From IMG/VR virus record IMGVR_UViG_3300009181_000079, positions 1 to 62,046 of that record: DNA of 62,046 bases. One strand, written 5' to 3'. A program made the position numbers and the translations under genes. Numbering within the stretch: the stretch's first letter is position 1; each line of letters starts with the position of its first letter. The DNA comes from a virus. This document shows positions 5,851 to 44,505 of the stretch, in pieces. The notes below the pieces were generated by a model. That model was given only the letters and a program-made list of their open reading frames with translations, was not told the DNA's origin and did not search any database.

Positions 5851-7133
5851 GCCAACCCATCCAGCCATTCATCCAAAAGCAGGAAGACGCAGCCATTGGC
5901 CTGATCTCCTGCATGAGGGCCGACCTTCTCCGCGCCGGGGCTCTCGCAAAGTCAGCAGGAATCACCGCTCACCACTTCGCCTCACCACTCGACACCGTGT
6001 TCGTCTGCATGATGGGCATGTGGGCCGATAGCCAGGAGTTTGACTGGCTCGATCTCATCCAGAGAATGAGAACCCACGGAAAGCTCACCCGGGACGGCGA
6101 GAAAGAGAGCCTCAAGGCCGCAATCTACGCCGACACGCTCATCCACACCGCCCCGTCTCACATCAACGCCCTCCTGGAGTGCGCAGCAGCCCGCAGGATG
6201 CACGAGATTGGCTCCAGACTCATGGCGAGAGCCTTTGACCTCTCCGAGCCCACCACGGAGCTTCTGGACGAGGTGCGCGACCAACTTTCTGGAGTGACCA
6301 CTCGACCCGTAGAGAACAAGACAGGGATCAAGGGGTTTGTTACGGAGGCGATCGCAGCCATCACCAGCAAGCTCAATGGAGATAATGAGGATCACGAAAC
6401 CATCGAACTCGGACTCGGGCTCGATCGCGCTGCTGGCCCATTCTACCGCTCAGATCTGGTGATCATCGCCGGAGAGACCAAGCGCGGCAAGTCGGCCCTC
6501 GCCGGGAACATCGTGGAGAACGTAGCCGCAGCCGGAAAAGCCGTCGCCCTGTTCTCTCTGGAGATGTCTGGTCGCCAGAACGCAGAGCGTATGCTCGCAA
6601 GCCAGGCTGGAGTGAACATCCGCAGCCTCAAGATGGACGGACCGGTGCCACGCGACATCTTCGACAAGGGACCCAGCGAATTTGAGCGCCTCACCAAGGC
6701 CGCAGCCAGAATCGCACAGTGGAACATCCAAATCTTCGAGAAGACTAAGAAGATCGACGCCATCGTGGCTGAGATGCACCGGATGAAGGCAACCACAGGT
6801 CTCGATCTCGCAGTCGTTGATTACGCCCAGCTCACCCGTGGGATCCGGAATGACGGAGACAACCGGGAGCGCGAGGTGGCCAGCATTTCCGGAATGCTCA
6901 AGGAAGCTGCCAGCGCATGTAACTGCTTGGTCATCCTTTTGAGCCAGCTCAATGAACACGGGAAGCTCCGCGAGTCACGCGCGCTCGGTCAAGACGCCAA
7001 CTGCGTGCTTGCAATCGAGGAGGATGGGAATGGTCGCAAGATCAGCGTCATCGCAGCCCGCTCCGCGCCAGGCAGCGAAATCCCGATCAAGTGGGAGCCT
7101 CAATACACACGATTCTCGGAGGTATCAGAATGA
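5847..7133 (+). CDS. DnaB-like replicative helicase
   Basis: 428 residues from the ATGA-overlap start at 5847; the upstream ATG at 5766 lies inside the previous gene and is rejected. The N-terminal helical domain (about 10-150) matches DnaB N-domains. The RecA-like motor has Walker A GETKRGKS (209-216), then VALFSLEMSGRQNAERMLAS (helicase motif H1a region), Walker B LDLAVVDYAQL (about 320-330) and VILLSQLNEHGKLRES (H3). The last motif is followed by the DANCVLAIEED segment usual for the family. It would unwind the replication fork. A C-terminal extension is absent, so it is slightly short. Confidence 0.9.
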   Translation: MSQPIQPFIQKQEDAAIGLISCMRADLLRAGALAKSAGITAHHFASPLDTVFVCMMGMWADSQEFDWLDLIQRMRTHGKLTRDGEKESLKAAIYADTLIHTAPSHINALLECAAARRMHEIGSRLMARAFDLSEPTTELLDEVRDQLSGVTTRPVENKTGIKGFVTEAIAAITSKLNGDNEDHETIELGLGLDRAAGPFYRSDLVIIAGETKRGKSALAGNIVENVAAAGKAVALFSLEMSGRQNAERMLASQAGVNIRSLKMDGPVPRDIFDKGPSEFERLTKAAARIAQWNIQIFEKTKKIDAIVAEMHRMKATTGLDLAVVDYAQLTRGIRNDGDNREREVASISGMLKEAASACNCLVILLSQLNEHGKLRESRALGQDANCVLAIEEDGNGRKISVIAARSAPGSEIPIKWEPQYTRFSEVSE

Positions 7134-7366
7134 CCCACCTCGATAAAATCCGGGACGAGTTCATCGAGATGGTCCACGACTCATTGGAAGAGAAAGACCG
7201 AGGCCCAGGAACCCCGTTTGACGACTGGAAGAAGATGTTCAACCGGGTCGCATCCCACAAGCAAGCGGTCCCAGAGCTGGCATACCAGCAATGCGAAGAA
7301 CTCTTTGCGAAACTACCACCACGGAAGAATAGTGCTCGACTTCCAGAGATCGAATTTACAGAGTAG
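7130..7366 (+). CDS. Small helical protein coupled to the helicase
   Basis: 78 residues from the ATGA overlap at 7130. Acidic and helical throughout (LDKIRDEFIEMVHDSLEEKD), with a WKKMFNRVAS amphipathic helix and no cysteines. Position directly behind the helicase suggests a replisome accessory role, but I do not recognise the family. Confidence 0.55.
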   Translation: MTHLDKIRDEFIEMVHDSLEEKDRGPGTPFDDWKKMFNRVASHKQAVPELAYQQCEELFAKLPPRKNSARLPEIEFTE

Positions 7367-31266: not shown

Positions 31267-31527
31267 ATGGCCTACGCCGACCATCTCCTATCCTACCGAT
31301 CCGAATCATCTGAAGACCTCATAGCAGAGAAGGCCGCACTCAAGGCACAGCGCACGATCTACTCAGCACAGGGGATGGGCACAAAATCCATGCAACGGGA
31401 TCTGCGTCTTCTGGAGGAGAGGTTGCAGGCTATCAACTTTGTCTTGAGGGAGAGAAACCCTCCTGTCATCGTGCCGCCTGTGACTAACTTTGGCGTAGGA
31501 ATCTCTGACTTCAGCACCGTCCGATGA
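31267..31527 (+). CDS. gpW-like head-to-tail joining protein
   Basis: 86 residues. Helix-turn-helix-like N-terminal part (SSEDLIAEKAALKAQRTIYS), a GMGTKSMQRDLRLLEERLQAINFVL helical core, and a short tail. gpW proteins are of this size and lie directly before the lambda-type portal gene, exactly as here (ATGA overlap with the portal). gpW closes the portal after packaging and joins the head to the tail. The start codon follows a TTGACA by 14 bases and no Shine-Dalgarno site. Confidence 0.6.
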   Translation: MAYADHLLSYRSESSEDLIAEKAALKAQRTIYSAQGMGTKSMQRDLRLLEERLQAINFVLRERNPPVIVPPVTNFGVGISDFSTVR

Positions 31528-33362
31528 GCGACAATTTGATCAAGCTCTATGATGGTCGGGGGAATGTCGTCACTGAATTTCACCCCAAGTTCAACGATGT
31601 CCGCAGGGAGATCCAATTCGGCGCGCAGTATAACCCCGCCCCTGAGAGAAGGGGCTCAAGTGGCGGAATCTATGGCAACGCGGCTCCCGAGACATGGGCT
31701 CGCAATCGGGATAGGCTTCAGTCCATGTGGGACGCGAGAGATCAATGTCAATTTAGTTGGGTTGGCGGTATGCTCGGTCGCGTCTGCCGCTACGTGGTAG
31801 GCAGGCTTCACTGCAAGTCTGAGACTCAAGACCCGCAAATTGACGCAGCCTACGACGACTACTTCCACTCCTGGTGTGGAGACGAACGGAACGAGGACGG
31901 CACAACCAACTGCGACATCACGGGCAGGGCAAGGTTCCTCAAGATGGTTCAACAGGCTTTCCTTGCTCACCTTATTGACGGCGACCATGGCTTTATCGAG
32001 GTAGCTCCAGAGTTCTCACCAACCGGAAGATACTGCCTTCAAGCAATCGAGGCGGACTGCATCGGATCCCCGAATGAACAGACTACTTTTGAGGACTATA
32101 TCGGAGGCGTGAAGATTGATGTCAATACGGGCCGGGTTCTCTACTATCGAATCTTCAAGCGCACACGCACACAGCAATATGTGAAGCTCGCAGAGGTGGA
32201 GCCAGCGAACTTCATTCATCTCAATGACTTTGACCGCTCGGGGGAATACCGGGGCCGCACCAAGCTCCTGCGCGCCCTGAACGATCTCCGAGACATCCGT
32301 GAAGCACTCACAGCCGAGATGGTCAGCGCCAAGACTCAGGCCCAGTGGTCAGCACTCATCGGAGTCAAGGACCCGTTCTCCAACCAAGGCCCGGCGGCCT
32401 GGTCGGGAAAGACCGCAGACGGCACCCCAACTCAAGACGCACAGTGGGGCAAGATTCTAAAGATGGCAGAGGGCGAGCAGTTCCAGATGCTCACCCCTTC
32501 CGCCCGTCCTTCAGGTGCTTTCATGAACCTGATTGACACCCTGATTCGCAAGCTGGCCATCAGCCTGGAACTCAGCTACGGTATGGTGTGGAACCTCGCC
32601 ACCCTCGGCGGAGCCAGCCAGCGCATCGAGACAGAAGCCGACAATCTCAAGATTCAGACCTGGCAGGATCTCCTGAAGGACTACATCCTCACACGGGTCC
32701 GGAACAAAGTCATCGCGGAAGGCATCGCCACTCAGATGCTACCACCTCATCCAGCATGGAAGAGGCACTCTTGGAGATTTGGTAAGCAGATCACCGCAGA
32801 CTTGGGCTACGAGATGGAAAGCGACCTGAAGGCCGTAGGCGCCGGCATTGCCGAGATCGAGCATGTGGTGGCCAAGCACACCGGAAAGAGCTTCAGCGAG
32901 GTCTGTGCGAGCAACACGGCGGCAGCCAATACAGCTATCAACAACGCATCGCAGGCCGGCATCCCCGTCGAAGTCACAGCCCGCGGAATGTTCCCGGACA
33001 TCACAGCCCAGCGCGCGAACTTCCTGCAAAGCCAGGCGCCACCTCCACCACCCGCAAGCCCCGTCAGCATCGGCGTCCTCGGGGACAAGGGCATCAAGCC
33101 TCTCATCGACATCATGGAGAAAGTCGGAGACGGAACGATCGACAGGGAATCCGCCATCAACGCCATCATCGAAATCTACAGCCAGCCAGGCAACGAGCTC
33201 TCCCGCCAGGACGCGGAGAAGCTCATACCAGAGGAGCCGGAAGAGGAAGACCTCAATCGGTCGGCGGGGCTCACACCTGAAGGCAAGCACGCGCCAGTGG
33301 TCGCAGGTCCGAAGCCCAGCAGCAACGGCAGTAAGCCCAAGACGAACGGAGCACGCAAATGA
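31524..33362 (+). CDS. Portal protein, lambda gpB family
   Basis: 612 residues. The sequence follows lambda-type portals: an N-terminal crown and clip region with ETWARNRDRLQSMWDARDQC; DITGRARFLKMVQQAFLAHLIDGDHG, the wing motif; and a C-terminal charged tail (about 560-612). The portal ring is the DNA entry and exit channel. The N-terminus also carries the REIQFG peptide (30-33), part of a motif shared with the downstream virion proteins. It overlaps the next gene by ATGA. Confidence 0.85.
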   Translation: MSDNLIKLYDGRGNVVTEFHPKFNDVRREIQFGAQYNPAPERRGSSGGIYGNAAPETWARNRDRLQSMWDARDQCQFSWVGGMLGRVCRYVVGRLHCKSETQDPQIDAAYDDYFHSWCGDERNEDGTTNCDITGRARFLKMVQQAFLAHLIDGDHGFIEVAPEFSPTGRYCLQAIEADCIGSPNEQTTFEDYIGGVKIDVNTGRVLYYRIFKRTRTQQYVKLAEVEPANFIHLNDFDRSGEYRGRTKLLRALNDLRDIREALTAEMVSAKTQAQWSALIGVKDPFSNQGPAAWSGKTADGTPTQDAQWGKILKMAEGEQFQMLTPSARPSGAFMNLIDTLIRKLAISLELSYGMVWNLATLGGASQRIETEADNLKIQTWQDLLKDYILTRVRNKVIAEGIATQMLPPHPAWKRHSWRFGKQITADLGYEMESDLKAVGAGIAEIEHVVAKHTGKSFSEVCASNTAAANTAINNASQAGIPVEVTARGMFPDITAQRANFLQSQAPPPPPASPVSIGVLGDKGIKPLIDIMEKVGDGTIDRESAINAIIEIYSQPGNELSRQDAEKLIPEEPEEEDLNRSAGLTPEGKHAPVVAGPKPSSNGSKPKTNGARK

Positions 33363-36300
33363 AGAACCCGCTTTTCAAGTCAGGCATCAAATCCGGAACC
33401 CACCACCTCGGAGGAGTGGGTGAGATAAAGCGCATCCGCCTGCGCGACATCCACAGCCCACAGCAAACCGTGGACGAGAAGAAGGTGAGGAAGCTTGCCC
33501 GCTTCACGAAGAACATGCCAGGCACGCCCACGGTGAGCCACGCAGGCCGCGGGAAGTATGTCCTCAAGGACGGCAACCACCGGGTCAACGCAGCGCTCAG
33601 GCAGGGCAAGCGGGTGATCGATGTCCGGGTTCAGAAGTTCTCCTCCCGCTCTCCTCTCATCCAGTTCATGCACTGCACAGCCGAAGCCGTCCCACGAGCT
33701 GACATCCCGCGCAAGATTGTGAAAAGAAAGATCACCAAAAAGCCAATCCAGTTCGCTGCATTTGATATGTATAGAACCTGGATGGACCCGATCGACAAGA
33801 GTAGCCCGGGCCGAAAGAACCGCAGGGCGCTTCAGGATGCCGCCGGCAGGTCCGTTGATCTACCGGCCAGCAAGCCGCCCCGAGTTTCATCCGGAGGGAT
33901 TGGGCGTTCACTGTCCCAGGAGCGCATCGAACAAAAGATACAACAACGCGCGGCTAGAGAAGTCGCGGACCAGATGGAAGGCATTCGCGATCACCCGGGC
34001 GTCGGGGCGCCCTCTACTGAGGGCGAGCTTGCTCGGCACAAGAAGGCCATGCAGGGTCCGGAGCTTTATCATCCTGAGAACGAGGCGAAGGGCTCAGTGA
34101 TCCACACGCGGAATAAGCCAGCTCCAGTGGACGCATGGAAGCACCGAGACCCGAAGGCGTGGTTGGTGGCTAACAAGGCTCAAGGGAGACACGCCGATCT
34201 CGATCCGGAGAACATGACCGCCATGCAGAAGGCGTCCATGAGAAAGGAGGCACAAGCCTTCCGCGATACTGAAGCGAAGACGCTCCGATCTCTCCGTGGT
34301 CGGATACAGGAGATGCGCAAGGCCGTAAGCCCTGGATTCAAGCCATCAGAAAATTTCAAGCCGAGCTCTGGGTCTAACAATATCGTCGGCGGGATGAAGC
34401 CAGAGAAGTGGGAGCCAAAAGGAACACTGAGGATCGGCCCTGGACTCAGCACTCCTGAGATGGTCCATGGCGCGATCTCTCATGTGGATCAAAAAGCAGG
34501 AGAACGCATATCCACGGTGAAGAGCAGACTCGCCCGCATGGTCGGAACCTTAAGGAACAGGGTGTCTGAGACAACCGGTATTCCGGAAGGACCGGCACGC
34601 CATGCTCAGGTGAAGGGATACCTCGAAGGAATGATTCCATCGGAAGGCCCTACAGCAATGGACCTCACGAAGAAGATTGATCCAACTCGATCCGAGCGAA
34701 TCCAGAAAGCGATGAATTGGAAACCGGAGCGGGTCGAGAAGTCACGCCGCGCAATCGCGAAGCTGGAGCACCAGGCAAACAGCGCTGAATATCTCTCACA
34801 GGTCCGGCAGGGCGTCGTAAAGAAAATGGTAGCCGCCCCAAGAGTATCAACCCTTCCTGACGGTTACGTTCCAGGCGCCGCCCTCAAGAAGCTCGGGCGC
34901 ATCGCTGGCGCAACCGCCCTGGTCGGCGCAGGAGCCTACGGCATCCGGAAATATCTGAACCGCAATAAGGAGGAGCCAAAGCAGTTGAAGATGTCAGCGC
35001 GCGGACGGATCATTCAGTTCGTGGTCCCTCGTCAGGTTAAGCAAATAAGGAAGGCGATCCTGACCGCGCGCGAGCCAGCAAAGCGATGGAGGGCTTCTTC
35101 CTTTGCTGATCATGTGATGTCCGAATCTGAGAAAAGAGGAGGAACCGCACAGCGATTCTTCCCGAATCTTTACTCGAACATGCCACCCAAGACCTACAAT
35201 CTGCACGGGCGACCAGTGGACGCTCAGCGAATGGCCCGAGAGCAGAGCAGGGCCGGCCACGAGGAGAAGCTCGTCCAGCGACTTGTTGAGCAAGGGAAGA
35301 TCGTCCGCACTGACAAGCCGATTCCGAAAGAAGCATTCACCAACTACCCAGTCAATGCCATCGGAAAGCTGCCATCCGTGGAAGAGGTGATGTCCCAGGA
35401 TATTGTCGGCGATGTATCAAGCCGGGTTTCCAATCAATTCGCAAAGCACGCAGGGACCGCTCGTGCCGTAGTCTCAGAGGAGAGACGGATGCCGCTCGCA
35501 ATCATCCAGCACACTCCATCTCCATTGGCTGATAAGATCGCCGCAACTGAGCGGCGCGCAGTCGAAGCAGAGGGTCTCGTAGGCGGGCTCAGGGCGTCAG
35601 TAGCATCCTCAAAGAAAGCAGCGTCGGAGTCCGCCTCGCGCCACGCTGAGGAGATGAAGCGCCAGATCTTTCGCGGCGACCGCAACCTTTTGATCGGAGC
35701 CGGGGCCGCCGGGGCCGCCGGGATTGGCGGGGGATACCTACTTGGCCGCAAGAAGAAGGAAGTGCAGTTCAGCGAGAAGAAGCGCGAACTTACACCATGG
35801 CAGAAGGTCGGCATCTCGGCCGCAGCCAGCGGGGCGGTCCTCGGGGCTATTCCAGCATTCAGACATGGATCGACTTTCGGGGGAGTCGCCAGGTCCATCG
35901 CGACCGGGGCTGGTATTGGGTCTGTCGTCGGAGGCGGCGGGACATACATTGGCACTAAAATTCTAGGCGAACCGAGAAAGGACGATCCGATCGGCACAAC
36001 TAAGCGGGCCGCTGTAGGCGGGGCTATCGCCGGCCTTGGTCTCGGTGCCGCAGGGGCCATCGCTCTCCGTAGGGGGCATTTCAAGGGCGCTATGAATGAC
36101 TGGAGGCCCGTCACATTTATCAGGCGCACCGCAGCGCCAGTGGCCATTGCCACAGGAGCCGGAGCCGGAGCCCTTATTGCGGGTAGCCACGCAGCAGACG
36201 AGGGGCAGCAGGTTGATACGATGCGCAATCTCAAGAAGTCCATCCGCATGTCGTCCAAGCTCAAGCCAATCAGGTTCGCCATCGAAGCCCCGCTCTCGGG

Positions 36301-37741
36301 TAAGCTGGCCGCAGATCGTTATCGCAAGAAAATCGCCGATGATGATTTCGATCGCCGTGATGCAAATGTGCTTCGCTCCTCCGGGGCGGGGGCAGTCCTT
36401 GGCGGAATGTTGGGAGGCAGGCGCGGGGCTCTTGCCGGCGCCGGGCTTGGGGCAGCAAGCGTTCTTGGAATACGTCAGGCCACTAATAGCGGCAAGGATA
36501 TGTATGGCGAGCGTTCGCGCGGAGCCAAGCAAGCTGAGAGCCTTCCATGGAAGATTGCCGCCATCGGAGCGGCGGGACTTAGTGGGCGCAGTATTTACAA
36601 TAAGCTGAAATCACTTCGCGGCACCACCCTGAGCCGCAAGGGAGGGCTGATCGAATTTCGCGATTGGTCTGACAAGTGGGTTGGCGACAATGTGAACTAC
36701 ACGGCCCGAGGCGAAGACGTATCCCGATGGGGCGGAAGGGGCGGAAGGCTCGTCCGCGACATCGGGCGCAAGGCTCGCGGTGAGGAGCACAAGGATTCCC
36801 GCGGCAGGGTCCAGACCCCTGAGTGGCAAAAGCCATGGGCTAAGAAGGCCATGCTCATTGGCGGTGTCGGACTGGCGCTCGGAGCGGGCGTCCTTACACG
36901 CGGAAAGCTCAAGGGGCTCGCCCAGGAAGCCAAGGCATCGTATGGGGTCAATCAGGTCCCAAGGCCCGCTGCAAGATTTGCGCACAACGTCATGGAGGGC
37001 AACGTGTCTCATTCGATCAAGAACCGCATCGGGGCCTTTGTTCCAGGACCAGTGAAGCGCGGCTATCAAAAGGTGAAGGGATTCTTCGGCAACGTCGCTC
37101 GCGATGTAGAGCACAAGGCCGCCAGCAAGCTGGACAAGATCAACGAAGCCGTGGAGAACGAAAGCAATATGGTCGTCACCGCGAAGGGTAAAATCCACAA
37201 CGCGCGCAAGGTGAATGCAGCAGTTGCAGAGCAACAAGATGCTGTCGATAAAGCCAATGCCATAGCAAAGAGAGGGCAGGCCAATATCCAAGTGATGCGC
37301 TCCCCAGAGGAGCAGGCAGCAGAGGAAATTCTCAATACTATCCATGGGAAGCCACGCACATTTCTTTCTTCCAATGAAAAGCCGATCCGATTCGACGCTT
37401 GGGACATCAAGGAGAGGAGCCGCAATACCGCTATTGTCCGCACCCCGGACTACGACGAGACCCGCAAGAAACGCGAACACAAAAGGATGTCGAAATCCAC
37501 CGGATACCTTCTGCGTGATCTCGGCATTGCAGCGGCGGGCGGGATTGGATTATGGGCGGGGCACAGGCGCGGATTTGCGAAAGCCGCCAGCACCCGTCCT
37601 TTGATTTCTCCGACCGCTCGCGCCATCGAGGAGGCCCCTCCTCAGATGTGGATCCCGCAATCTGTCCAGCCAATCCGGTCCTATCAATCCATGGACCAAA
37701 TCATCCATCTCAATAACCAACTAGACAACCTGTTGACATAA
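33359..37741 (+). CDS. Very large modular virion protein (ParB-like N-terminus, glycine-zipper helices)
   Basis: 1460 residues. The N-terminus (about 20-95) has a ParB/Srx-fold signature with DGNHRVNAAL at 71-80. The rest is modular: basic helical segments alternate with glycine-rich hydrophobic helices, for example near 510-540, 780-800, 815-870, 880-905, 925-945, 1010-1045, 1160-1185 and 1390-1405. Seven copies of an [I/V]-[Q/R/E]-F peptide occur, at 101, 130, 552, 802, 971, 1098 and 1343. Its place after the portal and before the prohead protease suggests an internal, possibly ejected, protein. Processing into several products is possible. I do not recognise a known counterpart. Confidence 0.7.
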   Translation: MKNPLFKSGIKSGTHHLGGVGEIKRIRLRDIHSPQQTVDEKKVRKLARFTKNMPGTPTVSHAGRGKYVLKDGNHRVNAALRQGKRVIDVRVQKFSSRSPLIQFMHCTAEAVPRADIPRKIVKRKITKKPIQFAAFDMYRTWMDPIDKSSPGRKNRRALQDAAGRSVDLPASKPPRVSSGGIGRSLSQERIEQKIQQRAAREVADQMEGIRDHPGVGAPSTEGELARHKKAMQGPELYHPENEAKGSVIHTRNKPAPVDAWKHRDPKAWLVANKAQGRHADLDPENMTAMQKASMRKEAQAFRDTEAKTLRSLRGRIQEMRKAVSPGFKPSENFKPSSGSNNIVGGMKPEKWEPKGTLRIGPGLSTPEMVHGAISHVDQKAGERISTVKSRLARMVGTLRNRVSETTGIPEGPARHAQVKGYLEGMIPSEGPTAMDLTKKIDPTRSERIQKAMNWKPERVEKSRRAIAKLEHQANSAEYLSQVRQGVVKKMVAAPRVSTLPDGYVPGAALKKLGRIAGATALVGAGAYGIRKYLNRNKEEPKQLKMSARGRIIQFVVPRQVKQIRKAILTAREPAKRWRASSFADHVMSESEKRGGTAQRFFPNLYSNMPPKTYNLHGRPVDAQRMAREQSRAGHEEKLVQRLVEQGKIVRTDKPIPKEAFTNYPVNAIGKLPSVEEVMSQDIVGDVSSRVSNQFAKHAGTARAVVSEERRMPLAIIQHTPSPLADKIAATERRAVEAEGLVGGLRASVASSKKAASESASRHAEEMKRQIFRGDRNLLIGAGAAGAAGIGGGYLLGRKKKEVQFSEKKRELTPWQKVGISAAASGAVLGAIPAFRHGSTFGGVARSIATGAGIGSVVGGGGTYIGTKILGEPRKDDPIGTTKRAAVGGAIAGLGLGAAGAIALRRGHFKGAMNDWRPVTFIRRTAAPVAIATGAGAGALIAGSHAADEGQQVDTMRNLKKSIRMSSKLKPIRFAIEAPLSGKLAADRYRKKIADDDFDRRDANVLRSSGAGAVLGGMLGGRRGALAGAGLGAASVLGIRQATNSGKDMYGERSRGAKQAESLPWKIAAIGAAGLSGRSIYNKLKSLRGTTLSRKGGLIEFRDWSDKWVGDNVNYTARGEDVSRWGGRGGRLVRDIGRKARGEEHKDSRGRVQTPEWQKPWAKKAMLIGGVGLALGAGVLTRGKLKGLAQEAKASYGVNQVPRPAARFAHNVMEGNVSHSIKNRIGAFVPGPVKRGYQKVKGFFGNVARDVEHKAASKLDKINEAVENESNMVVTAKGKIHNARKVNAAVAEQQDAVDKANAIAKRGQANIQVMRSPEEQAAEEILNTIHGKPRTFLSSNEKPIRFDAWDIKERSRNTAIVRTPDYDETRKKREHKRMSKSTGYLLRDLGIAAAGGIGLWAGHRRGFAKAASTRPLISPTARAIEEAPPQMWIPQSVQPIRSYQSMDQIIHLNNQLDNLLT

Positions 37742-37752
37742 CCACAAACACC

Positions 37753-39096
37753 ATGAACACACGCCTAATCCAACTGAACAACACCGCCTCCCGCTGCCTC
37801 GAATTTCGCAGCTACGATGAAGATGAATCACATCTCCTGCGAAACACAGCCATCGGCGCAGGAGGACTTGCGGCGGCCGGAGCAGGCGCGGCATACTACC
37901 GCGGAGGTCAAATCCCTCGCCCATCGGCAGTGATGTCCGGAGGTTCAACTTTCGGGAACAGGCTCAGCGACGTTGGAACACGAATGAGGGTTGGTGCGGC
38001 ACAACTCGGCGATGATGCTGCTGGCCTTGGTCGGCGCGCTGGGCAATATGCCAGCGGAGCCGGTGGAGCGATTGGCGGAATGGGCGCAGAATACAGAAGC
38101 CTGCGCTCCGCGCAAGGCGGGCTTGGTCATCCTGTCACCCGGGCCGGCGCTGGTCGCATGAGCTCGCTCTGGGGCGCAGTCAAGGGAGCAGCCAGCAAGA
38201 TCAAGGGCCTTCGGTTTGATGCAATGGGTAACGTCATTGAATTTCGCAGCTACGATGACGAGTCTCATCTCGGTCGCAACGCCGCCATCGGTGCTTTATT
38301 AGCTGGCGCTGGCGTGGGTGGTGTGTATGCAAGGGGGGCGCGCTACAATGCCGCGAACAACTGGGAGGGTCGCATGGAGGGGTCTAAATTTGGATTTGGA
38401 GAAAATATGCGCTCTGGTGTCACTGGGCTTCGCGATGACGCCACGCGCGCTGGGCGATATGCCAAGAACGTAGGCTCTGGAATTGCTGAAGGAGCCGGGC
38501 ATTATGGCGACCTTCGCGCAGGCGCGAAAGAGGGACTCGGCCTGGGTCGCGGCGCTTCAGCCAAGGGAGCGCTCAAGAGGCTGGTCCAAAACGTAAGGAA
38601 CATCCGCTATCAGTCCAGCTCTCCATTGATTGCCCTCAACGCAAAGCTGGATAGTGTCATTGAATTTGAAGATCGGCCCAAGGCTGGATATTGGAGCAAC
38701 AACATGGCGGCAACCAGGGCGATGCGGGCCAGCGATAAGGGGGTTGGTCTAGTCCTGGCAGACCCCGAACTGATTGGCAACAGAGTGACAAAATCACTCG
38801 GACACTCTTTGGCGGGCGCTGGCATTGGAGCCGGAGCCGGAGCTGGCATCGGAGCGCTGGTTGCGAAAAATATGCCAAGAGGCAGAGGCGCGGGCATTGG
38901 GGCGATTATTGGCGGGCTGACCGGCGCTGGTATCGGAGATGTTCATGGCATGTATTCCGCGGATAAAGCTTACCTTGCAAAGAAGGGCATCACAATGCGC
39001 GGAGGCGGCTTTTTGGCTCCCAAGCTTTCCAAAGAGGCGCAACAGAAATACTTGCACCAAGATTACGCCGGAGGCGGCTGGAAGCCCAGTAAATAA
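37753..39096 (+). CDS. Glycine-zipper virion protein with internal duplication
   Basis: 447 residues. Two copies of a module run FRSYDEDES-HLLRNTAIGAGG (from about 17) and FRSYDDES-HLGRNAAIGALL (from about 163), each beginning with LEF or IEF followed by a glycine-zipper membrane-type helix and a helical spacer. A third partial unit ends with SVIEF at 303. A very Gly/Ala-rich segment (about 350-395) resembles a membrane-penetrating hairpin. The start follows TTGACA by 14 bases with an A/C leader. Probably an internal or ejection protein, by position. Confidence 0.65.
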   Translation: MNTRLIQLNNTASRCLEFRSYDEDESHLLRNTAIGAGGLAAAGAGAAYYRGGQIPRPSAVMSGGSTFGNRLSDVGTRMRVGAAQLGDDAAGLGRRAGQYASGAGGAIGGMGAEYRSLRSAQGGLGHPVTRAGAGRMSSLWGAVKGAASKIKGLRFDAMGNVIEFRSYDDESHLGRNAAIGALLAGAGVGGVYARGARYNAANNWEGRMEGSKFGFGENMRSGVTGLRDDATRAGRYAKNVGSGIAEGAGHYGDLRAGAKEGLGLGRGASAKGALKRLVQNVRNIRYQSSSPLIALNAKLDSVIEFEDRPKAGYWSNNMAATRAMRASDKGVGLVLADPELIGNRVTKSLGHSLAGAGIGAGAGAGIGALVAKNMPRGRGAGIGAIIGGLTGAGIGDVHGMYSADKAYLAKKGITMRGGGFLAPKLSKEAQQKYLHQDYAGGGWKPSK

Positions 39097-39113
39097 GGCA
39101 ATCCATAAAAGCC

Positions 39114-41039
39114 ATGTCAGCCAGGCGCGATCTTGAATTTATTATAAGCCTCTCTGACGAGGAGCCCGACAATCATCTTCTCCGAAACGCCGCCATGCTT
39201 TCCGGCATAGGCGCGATTGGAATAATCGGGCACAAAGGCGGAAGGCTGATGGATACTATCCGCAAGTCCTACAAGGCTGGCGCCAAAGAAATCGTAGGAC
39301 GCACTGGCCCAGCGGTGGAAGCGGTCAGGGCAGCGGCGGACAACATCCAGAACGCAACCGCATGGACATCGGACGTTGGTAGGCTTTGGGGCGCAGTGAA
39401 TGGCCCGCAGGCTGTGCAGAGGGCGGTCAGGGGCGCGAAGCACATCAAGGAGTTTCCAGCGATGGTGCGTGAGGGCATGAATGATCCGAACTCAGCAAGC
39501 TCGCTTGGTGGAAGAATTGGTAGGCGCCTCGGTAAAGCATGGAGATCGGCCGCCGAATCATTCAACTCTGCTCCGGCAGGAATGCCAGTTCACATGTCCG
39601 CCCGCGAGGAGCTTAATGAGATCCGGTTTGGGTATAGCTGGTCAGCCGATCCATTGAAGGTAGAGGCGCAGGGTGGATGGGATGTCGCCAAAGCGAGAAT
39701 CGAAACCGACGAAGGCGGCTTCATGGATGAGAATATCGCCCGGAATAAAAAGCGAGGAGTCTTGAACGCAATCAAGCGACTCAACGGGCGTCCGAGATTG
39801 AATCCATTCCTATACCACGACAAGGCAGGACATTCAGCGGCCTTCAAAAAGGCGAACCCTCACTGGGAGACCAATAGCACCGGCATGTTCTCCGCCCGCG
39901 ATCAACTGGATGAGATCCGGTTTGGGATTATGGGCGATCTCTGGAAAGGGATTCCCGGCAAGACATGGGCTGGAAGCATCGGTCGTGCCGCTGGCGCTGG
40001 GGCTCTACAAGGAGGAGCTGTCGGAGCTGGAATTGGCGCAATAGGCGGCGGCATTAGCGGAGCGATGAGCGATGATCCAAACAAGGGATTCATCAGCGGG
40101 GCCGCAGGTGGAGCACTCAAGGGTGGCGCAATCGGAGCCGGGCTTGGCGCAGCGGGATACGCTGGGATTCACGCAGCAGCCCCAGCAATTAGCCGATGGG
40201 GCGGGAAGCACCTTCCGAGCAGCATTGGCCCAGAAGGGGCGAAACTTGGGAGGGACCTCAACTCACTCAACCACCAGATCAGGGCCAGGGGATACAAGGG
40301 AAGACTAGGGGACGCAGGGAAGTATAACACACCTACATTATTAGCCAGGCACTCACTTGACTCCATTATTCAGATGTCCATGGAAGAGCCCACAGAACGC
40401 ACCAAGCGCGCGTCGAAGGGGAACTGGGCGGCAAAGATCGACCCAAAGGTAGTGCGCGGGGCCATTAGCGACAAGGAATCGAGGAGGCTTGCGCGCGAGG
40501 CTATTGAGAAAATCGCAAAGATCGGGAAGACGGCGCTCTCCGCCCGCGATCAGCTCAACACCATCCTCTTCAAAAGCATCGCCCGAGACGATCTTCAGAT
40601 GCCGGATGCGTGGATATGGAATCAGGAGGGCGGTAAATTCGGACCCGCAAACCATGGGCAAGTGCGCGCCGCCATGGCGGACCCGGATAACTACGCAGGC
40701 CCGCAGATCATCCGCAAAGTGAGCTACGGCGGACCAAGGATGCGAGTCAATCTGAAGAATGGAAAGAAAACCGTGCGTGACAGGTCCGGGGCAGAGAGAG
40801 AGCTGAGCGCCCGAGATCAACTAAATCTCATCACCTTCGGCGTTGACGCCAACGGCAAGCTCCACAACTCCAAGGGAGAGTTCGGAGGGGATAACGACGC
40901 TGTAGCGCATCCCGAAGCTATGAGAATGACATACCAGCGCGCAGCGGGCCTCGGGGCCACTGCCGGGGCTGCTGGAGTGGCTGGCGGCATGGGAATGAAA
41001 GCTCTCATCGAAAAACTCAAGGGACTGAAGCGCAAATGA
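39114..41039 (+). CDS. Modular virion protein with repeated SARDQL-type peptides
   Basis: 641 residues. Modules are delimited by MSARRDLEF (N-terminus), SAREELNEIRF (ending at 172), SARDQLDEIRF (ending at 270), SLDSIIQM, SARDQLNTILF (ending at 486) and SARDQLNLITF (ending at 575). Between them lie glycine-zipper segments (about 280-355 and 610-635) and basic helical spacers. The N-terminal HLLRNAAM unit resembles the duplicated module of the previous gene. The layout suggests repeated gene fusion of units that each began with the same N-terminal tag. Confidence 0.65.
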   Translation: MSARRDLEFIISLSDEEPDNHLLRNAAMLSGIGAIGIIGHKGGRLMDTIRKSYKAGAKEIVGRTGPAVEAVRAAADNIQNATAWTSDVGRLWGAVNGPQAVQRAVRGAKHIKEFPAMVREGMNDPNSASSLGGRIGRRLGKAWRSAAESFNSAPAGMPVHMSAREELNEIRFGYSWSADPLKVEAQGGWDVAKARIETDEGGFMDENIARNKKRGVLNAIKRLNGRPRLNPFLYHDKAGHSAAFKKANPHWETNSTGMFSARDQLDEIRFGIMGDLWKGIPGKTWAGSIGRAAGAGALQGGAVGAGIGAIGGGISGAMSDDPNKGFISGAAGGALKGGAIGAGLGAAGYAGIHAAAPAISRWGGKHLPSSIGPEGAKLGRDLNSLNHQIRARGYKGRLGDAGKYNTPTLLARHSLDSIIQMSMEEPTERTKRASKGNWAAKIDPKVVRGAISDKESRRLAREAIEKIAKIGKTALSARDQLNTILFKSIARDDLQMPDAWIWNQEGGKFGPANHGQVRAAMADPDNYAGPQIIRKVSYGGPRMRVNLKNGKKTVRDRSGAERELSARDQLNLITFGVDANGKLHNSKGEFGGDNDAVAHPEAMRMTYQRAAGLGATAGAAGVAGGMGMKALIEKLKGLKRK

Positions 41040-41329
41040 ACCGCCTCGTCCTGCTCAACCAGAAGCTCGACAGGCTGATTGAGTTCTCTCCGTCATGGAC
41101 GCGCAAGGCCGGCAAGTCAGACTCCGGAGGGCTGAATGAAAAGGGCCGCAAATCTTACGAACGAGCGAATCCAGGATCAAACCTCAAAGCACCGCAGCCC
41201 GAGGGAGGCTCACGCAGGGACTCCTTCTGCGCTCGGATGCGAGGGATGAAGAAGAAGCTCACCAGCGCGAAAACAGCAAACGACCCGGACAGCAGGATCA
41301 ATAAAAGCCTGCGCGCCTGGAAGTGCTGA
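41036..41329 (+). CDS. Small virion-associated basic protein
   Basis: 97 residues. N-terminal LNQKLDRLIEF tag (7-17), then a strongly basic, Gly/Ser-rich body ending in KKLTSAKTANDPDSRINKSLRAWKC. The sequence KGRKSYERANPGSNLKAP resembles the short DUF6321-like basic proteins often seen near phage head genes. It overlaps the preceding gene by ATGA and precedes the protease gene. Confidence 0.55.
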   Translation: MNRLVLLNQKLDRLIEFSPSWTRKAGKSDSGGLNEKGRKSYERANPGSNLKAPQPEGGSRRDSFCARMRGMKKKLTSAKTANDPDSRINKSLRAWKC

Positions 41330-41365
41330 GCGCGAACACCTTCGATTGACATAGGAGACTTCGGC

Positions 41366-42703
41366 ATGAGCCAAGTCATCCGATTCCACAACGCAAAAGC
41401 CTTCACCGGACTCACTGGACAAGTGAGATTTGATGAGGCGAAGATCCTCGGCGTGTCCCTTATCACTTCCAATCTGGAAGCGGAGGGACACAACCTGTTT
41501 GTGGACAACACCACCCTGACGCAGCTTCATGCGCTCGGCAAAGAGATGGGTCAGATACCCGTCACACAGAACCACGAAGGAGGGATCGAGGAGGTCAATG
41601 GCTGGATTGAAAACATTCGTTTCGATGGGGACAAACTCCGTGGTGATTGGTGCCTCCTACAGACCCACAAAGACACGCCTACGATGCTGGAGCGCGCGGA
41701 GAAACAACCCACCACATTCGGACTGTCTCTCGCCTTCAAAGGAGACCCGAAAGGAGTGCTACACATGGGCAAGCGTTGCGCTCGTGCAGAGAAGCTTTTG
41801 AGCGCAGACGTGGTGAAGCGTCCAGCAGCCAACCCTGGCGGTTTGTTCAGCGCAAAAGACACACCTTCCGTTGACAACAAGAAAATAGTCGAACTTAACA
41901 ATATGCCACAAGATCCCAACACCAATCAAGAGCCCACGATGGCTGATGTCCTCGCGCAAATCCAATCGCTCACACAGCATGTGCAGCAGTTGGGCGAAGT
42001 CCAGTCGCAAATCGTCGGACACATCAACGAGAGCACCGAGAACCAAGGCGATGAAGGTCTCACCGCTGAGCAGCTCGAACAACTCCACAACTCCAGCGAT
42101 GAGCAGCTTGCCGAACTCGGCCTGACTCGCGATGAAGTGGACGCAGCGGTTTCCGAATACAACGCCAGCGTCGAATCGCAGGGCGCAGAAGGCGAGCAAG
42201 GCGCAGAAAACGCTGAGCAGGGCCAAGGCGAAATGGCAACGGCAGGCGCAGGTATGGAAACCGGCGCACCCGGCGGGGCTACGATGATGCACGCAATGCA
42301 CCGCGAGCTCATCCAGCTCAAGGCTGAGATCAACCGCGAGAAGAACTCCAAGAAGATGGCAGCCGAGACTATCCAATTCCAGGAGGTCGAAAACAAGATT
42401 ACGCTACTCGCCGCACAGCGCGACCAGGCCATCCAGCTCGCTGAGATGGTTGTGTCCGAAAACGAAGCCCTCAATCTTCACATCAAAACCGGCACGCGCC
42501 CAGTGGCAGTCGGAGTTGATGAAGGTGTCCGCCTCTTCAGCGCCAACGGCTATGGTGAACTCCATCCGTTCCAACATCGCATCAAACAAATCATGCTGGA
42601 ATCCAAAGTGACGGAAGGCAAAGCCCTCCTGCTGGCCAGCAGAGAGAACTCCGCTCAACACGCCGACTGGCTCCAGTCCCAGGGCCGCACAATCAACGCC
42701 TAA
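41366..42703 (+). CDS. Prohead protease fused to a scaffold-like domain
   Basis: 445 residues. Protease half (about 20-160): the PVTQNHEGG, IENIRFDGDKLRGDW, TFGLSLAFKG and ADVVKRPAANPGG stretches fit Mu gpI/U35-type prohead proteases, with H70 and S121 as candidate catalytic residues. Residues 161-180 (FSAKD ... NKKIVELNN) form a linker that resembles the SAR-x-x-L tags of the neighbouring proteins and may be the self-cleavage region. The second half is a Gln/Glu-rich coiled coil typical of scaffolds. N-terminal QVIRF and QVRF also match the tag. Start 14 bases after TTGACA. Confidence 0.75.
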   Translation: MSQVIRFHNAKAFTGLTGQVRFDEAKILGVSLITSNLEAEGHNLFVDNTTLTQLHALGKEMGQIPVTQNHEGGIEEVNGWIENIRFDGDKLRGDWCLLQTHKDTPTMLERAEKQPTTFGLSLAFKGDPKGVLHMGKRCARAEKLLSADVVKRPAANPGGLFSAKDTPSVDNKKIVELNNMPQDPNTNQEPTMADVLAQIQSLTQHVQQLGEVQSQIVGHINESTENQGDEGLTAEQLEQLHNSSDEQLAELGLTRDEVDAAVSEYNASVESQGAEGEQGAENAEQGQGEMATAGAGMETGAPGGATMMHAMHRELIQLKAEINREKNSKKMAAETIQFQEVENKITLLAAQRDQAIQLAEMVVSENEALNLHIKTGTRPVAVGVDEGVRLFSANGYGELHPFQHRIKQIMLESKVTEGKALLLASRENSAQHADWLQSQGRTINA

Positions 42704-42722
42704 CACTCTACACTAACAACAC

Positions 42723-43454
42723 ATGAACATCTCACCTGTTATCTCACTGCCAGTCAGCGCGGATCTCTCTTCCGGCAAAGAGTATGAATGCGTGAAGCTC
42801 ACCTCGACAGGGGTGGCTATCGCAACCAGCATCACGGATCGCATCATCGGCACATTGCTTCGCGGCAATGACGCCCCTGCTAACGGTCAATCCGCTGTCG
42901 GAATGGCCTGCGACGTGTTCCTCACCGCCGGCAACGGTCTGCACTTCGTCAAGGTCGGCAACGACACTGCGATTACGGCTGGTGACGAGCTGGAGCAAGA
43001 CGCCACTGATGGCCGCGTTGTGAAGCGCGTAGCTGGCGCAGCAGTCGGTCAGGCTGTTGATTCATGCCCCGCATCCAGTGATGGTGGAGTCATCCGGGCA
43101 ATCATGTTCCCTCCTCCACAGCAGGGCGTCCTCGGCACCGCCGGGGCTGTCACGCAGCTTACCAACGCCTCCACGGGCGTAACGGTCAACGCTCTCAGCG
43201 GAGCAATCACCACGGTCGCTCTCACGGCAGCAGCCGCAGGGGAAATCCGCTTCACGGTCACGAACAGCTTTATGGCAATCGGCGACACAGTGAGCTTCTC
43301 CACCACCTACAACGGCGGAGGCACTCCAATCATCGGATCGGCACTCAACGTGACCGCAGGAACCTTCGATGTCGTAGTCACCAACTTGCACGCCAGCGCG
43401 GCTCTTGATGCCCTCATGGTCATCAACTTCGTGATCAACAAGGCAGCCGTCTAA
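42723..43454 (+). CDS. Head decoration protein
   Basis: 243 residues. The N-terminal part (about 1-110) follows the DUF2190/lambda gpD-type decoration pattern: SADLSSGKEYECVKLTSTGVA, FLTAGNGLHFVKVGNDTAITAGDELEQDATDGRVVK. The C-terminal half is an extra beta-sandwich (GAVTQLTNASTGVTVNAL ... DTVSFSTTYNGGGTP) likely exposed on the capsid. It sits between the protease and the major capsid protein, the usual place. Confidence 0.7.
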   Translation: MNISPVISLPVSADLSSGKEYECVKLTSTGVAIATSITDRIIGTLLRGNDAPANGQSAVGMACDVFLTAGNGLHFVKVGNDTAITAGDELEQDATDGRVVKRVAGAAVGQAVDSCPASSDGGVIRAIMFPPPQQGVLGTAGAVTQLTNASTGVTVNALSGAITTVALTAAAAGEIRFTVTNSFMAIGDTVSFSTTYNGGGTPIIGSALNVTAGTFDVVVTNLHASAALDALMVINFVINKAAV

Positions 43455-43482: not shown

Positions 43483-44505
43483 ATGTTCAACACCGTTGAC
43501 TCAGTTCCAAGGACAGACATCAGCACTGCGCTGATGGAGGCTGTCGGCCAAAAGAAGCAGTTTGTCGCGCAAGCCCTCTTGCCGATTTACGACTCGCCAA
43601 CGGAAGTTGGTCGGTATCCACGCTTCCGCAAACAGGCTTCCGAGCTGCTCCGCGCAGGTCGTAGCCCTAGCGACACCACTACATTCAACAGCTCTACCAA
43701 GCGTGGTTCCACTGGCACCTACAATGAACTGACCCGCAAGTTCGAGTGGGATAGCTACCAGACCGAGGAATACGGTTTGGAAGAGCGCATCGACGACAAA
43801 GTTCGCACCCGTATGCGGAACTTCTTTGATGCGGACATGATCACAGCAGACCTGCTCATGAACTCCCTGATGCTCGACTACGAGATGGAAGTCTCGGCAA
43901 AGTTGAACACCACGGTTGGCACCGACGCCGCCGAGGGCTTCGTGCAGACCGCTGCAGGCGTGAACTACACGGAAACGCTCATTGCAACAGCGGATGTGCC
44001 GAAAGACATGAACGCAGTTATCGAGCGCCTCACATTACTCGGCACGGATCCTTCCGAGCTGACGGCAGTGATGTCTCTCACGGTTTGGAACTACCTCCGC
44101 CGCACCACGAAGCTCCAGACCTACGTGTATGGCTTCCTGAACGTGACGCAGGGTGGCTCGCAAATCACCGAGCAGATGTTTGCTCAAGCTTTCGGAATCG
44201 CCGGCCTCCTGGTCGCTCGCAAGTCCGTGGACACCGCCATGAAAGGCAAGGCCGCAAGCCTCGTGCCTGTCTGGGGCAACACCAACATCTTTGTCGGCAA
44301 ACTCGGCGAGGGAGACTTTATGAACGGCGGCGTGGGTCGCACAATCACCTGGGGCGCAGACAGCCCCGGAGGCTTGTTCACCTCTGAGCAGTATCGCGAC
44401 GAGAAGCGCCGCGGTGATATGCTCCGTGTGCGCAGCAACCGGTCGTTGAAAATCATTGACCCTACTTGCGGCCAGCTCATCGCTACGAACTACAGCGCAA
44501 GCTAA
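43483..44505 (+). CDS. Major capsid protein, lambda gpE/HK97-fold family
   Basis: 340 residues, the expected length for a gpE-like capsid protein. It shows the usual N-arm (RTDISTALMEAVGQKKQFVAQALLP), the E-loop region (YPRFRKQASELLRAGRS), LTRKFEWDSYQTEEYGLEERID, and the P-domain MNAVIERLTLLGTDPSELTAVMS. The C-terminus (VRSNRSLKIIDPTCGQLIA) is also typical. It forms the icosahedral shell. A strong hairpin terminator follows at 44526, so it may be the last gene of a head transcript. Confidence 0.85.
   Translation: MFNTVDSVPRTDISTALMEAVGQKKQFVAQALLPIYDSPTEVGRYPRFRKQASELLRAGRSPSDTTTFNSSTKRGSTGTYNELTRKFEWDSYQTEEYGLEERIDDKVRTRMRNFFDADMITADLLMNSLMLDYEMEVSAKLNTTVGTDAAEGFVQTAAGVNYTETLIATADVPKDMNAVIERLTLLGTDPSELTAVMSLTVWNYLRRTTKLQTYVYGFLNVTQGGSQITEQMFAQAFGIAGLLVARKSVDTAMKGKAASLVPVWGNTNIFVGKLGEGDFMNGGVGRTITWGADSPGGLFTSEQYRDEKRRGDMLRVRSNRSLKIIDPTCGQLIATNYSAS

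Follow-up and report, generated by a model that had tools for sequence, protein, structure and literature searches.

The tagged head-gene block

The 62,046-nucleotide stretch analysed here (hereafter the window) is the complete IMG/VR virus record IMGVR_UViG_3300009181_000079, and its lambda-type head gene cluster contains a short peptide tag that recurs along long, multi-module proteins. The cluster, which lies with its tags on the plus strand, opens with a portal protein of the lambda family (31524-33362; Pfam PF05136, E=8e-31), followed by three chains that are predicted to be cargo polyproteins. The first (33359-37741; 1460 residues) has an N-terminal ParB/Srx-like module and five strong internal tags, the second (37753-39096; 447 residues) contains a glycine-zipper segment, and the third (39114-41039; 641 residues) carries six tags. 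A stand-alone gene of 97 residues (41036-41329) encodes a tagged DUF6321 domain (PF19846, E=2e-22), in which MNRLVLLNQKLDRLIEF↓SPSWTRK (17.0 bits) forms the junction, the arrow marking here and below the boundary between a tag and the residue that follows. Next come a predicted prohead protease fused to a C-terminal scaffold-like helical region (41366-42703), a likely head decoration protein (42723-43454), assigned from its position between the protease and the major capsid protein and matching phrog_18251, whose function is not annotated, and the major capsid protein (43483-44505; phrog_1005, E=3e-29). A preliminary description of this DNA counted three large virion proteins; the number is correct, while their location in the virion is a prediction, and the tag at 41078 that it placed within them belongs to the separate DUF6321 gene.

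Relatives were gathered by searching with the major capsid protein, and seven genomes were taken from the near clade (55-71% capsid identity). The portal, used as a query among viral contigs, returned no relatives, and no relative of the capsid protein was found in bacterial or archaeal genomes, hence no host is assigned. A gapped motif model was trained on the seven relatives alone, with the window excluded, and sites of at least 10 bits are termed strong. The consensus is [M/L/F]-[S/N]-[A/S]-[R/K]-(0-2)-L-[D/N]-x-(I/V/L)-I-x-[F/L], followed by Ala or Gly. The portal-to-protease block of the window contains 13 strong sites, against a mean of 0.17 and a maximum of 2 in 60 shuffles, and its reversed sequence contains none. 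According to the preliminary description, an equal density of the motif in unrelated proteins of this genome would speak against a dedicated signal; the remaining 16,455 residues of the window hold a single strong site. Across the eight genomes 84 strong tags lie in cargo proteins versus 6 elsewhere in ~136,000 residues, one of the latter being in the scaffold of genome G007. P3 is Ile in 80 of the 84, and P1 is Phe in 69, Leu in 13 and Glu in none. Genomes carry from 6 to 17 tags, and the largest number in one chain is nine (G007, open reading frame (ORF) 20324, C-terminal copy included). When all viral contigs were searched, a degenerate SAR-type pattern matched only two members of the window's clade, and an LD-type pattern matched seven other contigs, none of which holds a tag array; within the limits of these two restricted patterns, the tag looks lineage-specific. 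Distant from the head genes, a 91-residue ORF of the window (7091-7366) ends in the tag-like KNSARLPEIEF-TE (16.9 bits), which may be chance or may mark a cargo protein encoded elsewhere.

The final Phe codons of the strong sites start at 33665, 35018, 36275, 36656, 37391, 38665, 39138, 39627, 39921, 40374, 40569, 40836 and 41084. The tags of the first chain are FSSRSPLIQF↓M (33638-33667; 19.6 bits), directly 3' of the ParB-like module, MSARGRIIQF↓V (34991-35020; 23.4 bits), MSSKLKPIRF↓A (36248-36277; 24.3 bits), whose position is kept in relatives, LSRKGGLIEF↓R (36629-36658; 14.4 bits) and LSSNEKPIRF↓D (37364-37393; 15.8 bits). This chain closes with the C-terminal tag IIHLNNQLDNLLT-stop (37700-37738), which lacks the final Phe, was absent from the preliminary list and is recognised from the translation and from the C-terminal tags of relatives. 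The second chain contains LNAKLDSVIEF↓E (38635-38667; 22.9 bits). The third starts with the N-terminal tag MSARRDLEF↓I (39114-39140; 14.8 bits, the model putting the end at the neighbouring IISL, 39150) and continues with MSAREELNEIRF↓G (39594-39629; 23.1 bits), FSARDQLDEIRF↓G (39888-39923; 22.5 bits), LLARHSLDSIIQM↓S (40338-40376; 10.7 bits), LSARDQLNTILF↓K (40536-40571; 21.0 bits) and LSARDQLNLITF↓G (40803-40838; 19.2 bits).

All 21 tripeptides listed in the preliminary description are in frame with the residues given for them. Its estimate of about 20 recurrences holds for the 13 strong sites and for two weak ones (Phe codons 38242, 8.4 bits, and 42377, 7.8 bits), while six sites score below 6 bits (31611, 33746, 35762, 37798, 41378 and 41423). 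Counterparts of three low-scoring sites, 33746 (KKPIQF↓A), 35762 (EVQF↓S) and 37798 (the N-terminal MNTRLIQLNNTASRCLEF), are recognisable in relatives. The proposed spread over portal, three large proteins and protease is borne out for the large proteins, whereas the sites in the portal and at the protease N-terminus fall short of the full motif. In the portal, the N-terminal REIQF↓G (IQF at 31611-31619) has only x-x-F-[S/G] in common with the other portals, a feature of all eight clade portals; it is possibly a processing site rather than a full tag, and at best a bare cleavage-like sequence. The IRF and VRF of the protease N-terminus (41378 and 41423) were rejected as tags, as relatives have no tag at the same place. 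The suggestion that an internal Met preceding a tag was once an N-terminus gains no specific support: Met is interchangeable with Leu and Phe at this position, and ribosome-binding sites accompany 10 of 28 such codons versus 131 of 448 other internal Met codons, a weak test in which real starts score no better.

Modules and their exchange at the tags

To compare cargo between genomes, chains were cut at the tags and the resulting segments compared. The same modules were found in differing company among the genomes. An HNH-like module is a gene of its own in G002 and is fused ahead of a tag in G003. The ParB/Srx-like module, named from its DGNHR motif without a Pfam hit, occurs in three settings: in the window and G007 it starts the long chain, G002 and G003 have it behind a tag in a separate gene of smaller size, and in G004 and G005 it begins a ligase-like gene, the G005 copy of which matches Pfam DNA_ligase_OB_2 (4e-11) and, below threshold, LigD_N. 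In the window, DUF6321 forms a tagged gene of its own, and in G003 it lies inside a chain with a tag on either side. In G007 it separates the ParB-like module from the tag SSKAPLIQF, while in the window the ParB-like module is followed at once by SSRSPLIQF. A metallopeptidase-like segment is present in some relatives only, below the Pfam cut-off in L003 and visible by eye as HEAGH/HEATH in L003 and L013; Pfam gave no metallopeptidase match in the window's chains. ParB-like, DUF6321, HNH and metallopeptidase-like segments are found combined in chains encoded by phage late genes. Alignment ends within chains fall no more than 10 residues from a tag in 36% of cases versus 13% for random positions, although these alignments are not independent. 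Judged by segment comparison, the tags mark the boundaries of swappable protein modules in the window phage and its relatives, in line with the preliminary view that the tag was repeated as modules became fused.

One tagged gene (L007:5178-6818, L005:1566-3527) joins ParB-like, LigD_N-like and DNA-ligase OB domains, and its ligase-like product is apparently bound for the head.

In outgroup phages (34-38% capsid identity) the protease directly follows the portal and tag arrays are absent, indicating that the tagged block is specific to the window's lineage. The outgroups L076-L078 have portals of 873-991 residues with long C-terminal extensions, and the genes downstream of the portal, amid structural genes, appear by eye to be glycosyltransferase-like and methyltransferase-like. 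GIY-YIG-type ORFs, perhaps mobile endonucleases, separate the tagged block from the protease in L002 (6618-7865; Pfam match) and L013 (7223-8137; similarity). The decoration-protein gene (window 42723-43454, L002 and L014) ranges from ~124 to 243 residues among relatives, some copies having an extra domain.

Processing, targeting and alternative readings

The residue following the tag, P1', lies outside the motif model. Of 79 internal tags, 47 have Ala or Gly there, a 3.3-fold enrichment that persists when one tag is taken per non-homologous group (p=1e-9, or p=5e-7 with local composition as the background); hydrophobic residues occupy the position 4 times versus 23 expected. A second feature distinguishes tags by their place in the chain. 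Phe is retained in one of nine hand-curated C-terminal tags at chain ends versus 36 of 43 internal tags (p=7e-5), the latter chosen by their leading part without use of the Phe columns; when one automatic selection was applied to both groups, Phe is present in one of six C-terminal tags (p=0.002). As C-terminal tags keep the leading part and mostly lose the Phe, the leading part appears to matter everywhere and the ending only inside chains. In T4, targeting depends on residues 4 and 7 of the targeting sequence and processing on residues 8 and 10, and the protease gp21 cuts after L/I-x-E (PMC9026906).

DUF6321 provides a boundary that can be compared across phages. The domain occurs in 538 phage records, mainly T4-like cyanophages, and within the window's clade is preceded by a tag ending: IEF↓SPSW in the window, IQL↓GSAW in G003 and IEL↓ASAAW in G007. 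In 17 of 17 T4-like cyanophages, taken as a spread, the residue at the same joint is Glu, with one to four residues (small ones or Lys) between it and DUF6321, as in FVNE↓GAAWTKK of P-SSM2, which was confirmed to encode gp21 and gp22. At the sequence level, the same domain is therefore preceded by Glu in gp21-type phages and by Phe or Leu in the window's lineage. Two Pelagibacter phages have a bare DUF6321 without leader, beginning MAKSPAW and MGLLSSPAW. The DUF6321 protein of P-SSM7 starts MKTYSQFIEE, which resembles the leader of T4 internal proteins.

The GC119/gp114-type proteins of T4-like cyanophages (L091, L093, L094, L098, L099, L100 and L106) look like strings of short modules, such as KDACY..SVWPSAYAS, CWDGYEKKG and DUF6321, with Glu-Gly/Ala joints and a repeated FS-x-WRDDLDL-x-E motif. 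Internal copies of a T4-like leader are seen as KTFAEFCAE↓G (S-CAM7 L106) and KTYEEFVSE↓C (S-RIM14 L107). These proteins are possibly a second polyprotein system.

A candidate for the cutting enzyme is encoded just downstream of the tagged genes and was assigned from alignment, structure model and fold search. The best PDB match of the 41366-42703 product is T4 gp21 (prob 0.98), a weak match at E 0.012 from a low-confidence model (mean pLDDT 59), followed by herpesvirus maturation proteases; in a viral structure library, prohead proteases and prohead core scaffold proteins are matched at E<1e-3. His70 and Ser121, invariant in an alignment of 10 relatives, are candidate catalytic residues. The C-terminal half, with a predicted long helix (305-375), probably acts as a scaffold. 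Tag-like sequences that are conserved in part, FxALxxEVIQL and AExIQF (42371-42379 in the window, and in relatives), lie within it; these are possible self-cleavage sites and would fit a scaffold that is itself cut.

These data support the view that the tag is probably a T4-like head-targeting and processing signal with a new specificity, I-x-F↓A/G, reiterated along cargo polyproteins. In the proposed mechanism the leading part ([ML]-S-A-R/K..L-D), which varies in length, would carry its module to the procapsid interior, presumably because it binds the scaffold portion of the protease protein. The gp21-like prohead protease would cut after the closing residues, I-x-F or I-x-L, and ahead of Ala or Gly. 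With tags placed at its joints, a long chain would be delivered in one piece and later split inside the procapsid into its modules, which are ParB-like, DUF6321, glycine-zipper and others in the window, and nucleases, ligase-like and metallopeptidase-like domains in relatives. The tagged proteins would thus be internal head proteins, their modules remaining in the head and probably being ejected with the DNA; the types of cargo suggest roles early after ejection, in line with polyvalent proteins (PMC5512222). The preliminary description left a choice between sorting tag and processing site, and both fit. The processing site is the better supported of the two because of the Ala/Gly bias at P1', the loss of Phe at C-termini, the Glu at the DUF6321 joint in gp21-type phages and the gp21-like neighbour, and head targeting draws support from position, cargo type and the T4 analogy.

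If the tags were recognised by the protease only, and procapsid entry were secured otherwise, for instance by a chain's first module or through joint assembly with the portal or scaffold, all of this processing evidence would apply equally, and several chains have recognisable tags at internal places alone. Such a restricted role is nevertheless unlikely: the conserved stretch extends ~10 residues upstream of the cut, further than the L/I-x-E of T4, short single-module genes (window 41036, L007 4844) bear an N-terminal tag, and C-terminal tags persist without Phe. The C-terminal copies would suit peptides that bind the scaffold or capsid interior and are never cut, giving each chain many anchors in the manner of encapsulin cargo-loading peptides, and the confinement of tags to head-region proteins and the tag-like sequence in the scaffold point the same way. 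Docking alone, however, would not predict Ala or Gly after the Phe, the C-terminal loss of that Phe or the Glu that gp21-type phages have at the DUF6321 joint, making it a distinctly unlikely explanation. The exchange of modules at tags could also mean that the peptide is retained as shared sequence through which modules recombine, a seam or repeat-expanded linker with no direct role in assembly. This is very improbable, since both the spacing (10 to 13 residues) and the sub-type vary at the same joint (LNQKLDRLIEF in the window versus SARDQLDMIQL in G003, before the same domain), and stand-alone genes retain an N-terminal tag. That I-x-F strings were merely picked by eye would account for the six of 21 listed sites that do not score, but for the strong sites the shuffles, scored with a model drawn from other genomes, refute it and leave it a negligible likelihood.

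Several observations weigh against the favoured combination of targeting and processing. The window's own tags carry a mixture of P1' residues (M, V, A, R, D, E, S, G, G, S, K, G and S). C-terminal tags, if uncut, require another reason to exist, which targeting would supply. The cyanophage joint was compared at P1 only, and P3 there is often not Leu or Ile. Pfam and PHROGs give no confident assignment of the window protease or of its outgroup homologues, and both the E value of the gp21 match and the quality of the underlying model are modest. With respect to the docking mode, the hydrophobic moment of the tags as helices is not above that of shuffled tags (p=0.2), and an amphipathic-helix model of the tag was rejected on this basis.

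Comparison with known systems

The closest parallel is the capsid targeting sequence (CTS) that gp21 processes in the T4 internal proteins IPI-III and Alt (PMC9026906). Both are short two-part leaders attached to unrelated cargo; in T4 upstream residues target and the last residues are cut by the prohead protease, as is proposed for the tag, whose neighbouring protein is a putative gp21-like protease. The small residue favoured after the presumed cut here is matched by the glutamyl-alanyl bond cut in T4 gp22. In the window's lineage a short conserved leader stands on many unrelated modules (all 84 tags in the eight genomes, N-terminal copies included). Conversely, P1 is Phe or Leu rather than Glu, the tag occurs up to nine times in one chain, the portal and head genes are lambda-like, and protease and scaffold are one protein. 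The tag would work like a T4 targeting sequence, yet it fails the strict L/I-x-E definition and so is not one.

The DUF6321 proteins of Kyanoviridae (P-SSM7 PSSM7_194, ACG-2014f AIX41773) share a module with the window's lineage, often at the end of long multi-module chains, and have a presumed cut site at the same joint; they differ in the Glu at P1 and belong to phages otherwise unrelated to that lineage. No paper describing these cyanophage proteins as polyproteins was found in the literature searched. Whether tailed phages use a retrovirus-like polyprotein strategy, in which exchangeable, tag-bounded cassettes on one chain are cut in the procapsid by the prohead protease, in a Phe-P1 version here and, for cargo that is partly shared, a Glu-P1 version in T4-like cyanophages, is in our estimation evenly poised.

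Polyvalent proteins of phages and conjugative elements likewise combine disparate domains (ParB-like, metallopeptidase-like and others) in chains encoded by late genes, and are predicted to be packaged, injected and processed into parts (PMC5512222). Their processing is ascribed to a built-in zincin-like peptidase, and that proposed for the window's lineage to a separate prohead protease, with a tag at each joint. The prohead protease of phiKZ and SPN3US (gp175/gp245) recognises a short motif and cuts behind it in many internal head proteins, in places repeatedly (PMC9026906, PMC10052503), but that motif ends in Glu, nearly all of the segments removed are N-terminal propeptides, and a repeated tag between cargo modules is not reported. 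In phage P1, an N-terminal peptide, of which 30 residues are enough, directs the large cargo protein DarB into the head (PMC9024508); in P1 the signal is single and N-terminal, and the Dar proteins are without consensus.

If the proposed reading is correct, the head-targeting principle of T4 extends to an unrelated phage group with a different protease specificity, and phages gather and exchange injected proteins as tag-bounded cassettes. The tag would then serve as a sequence rule for spotting unannotated ejected proteins in uncultured phages, predicting their exact N-termini, and could provide a new packaging signal for putting proteins into phage heads. Set against the systems above, a targeting and processing leader with a gp21-type protease is already known from T4, as are multi-domain injected proteins; as far as the literature searched extends, what is new is the reiteration of the tag at joints, Phe or Leu at P1, its occurrence in a lambda-portal lineage and the cyanophage parallel.

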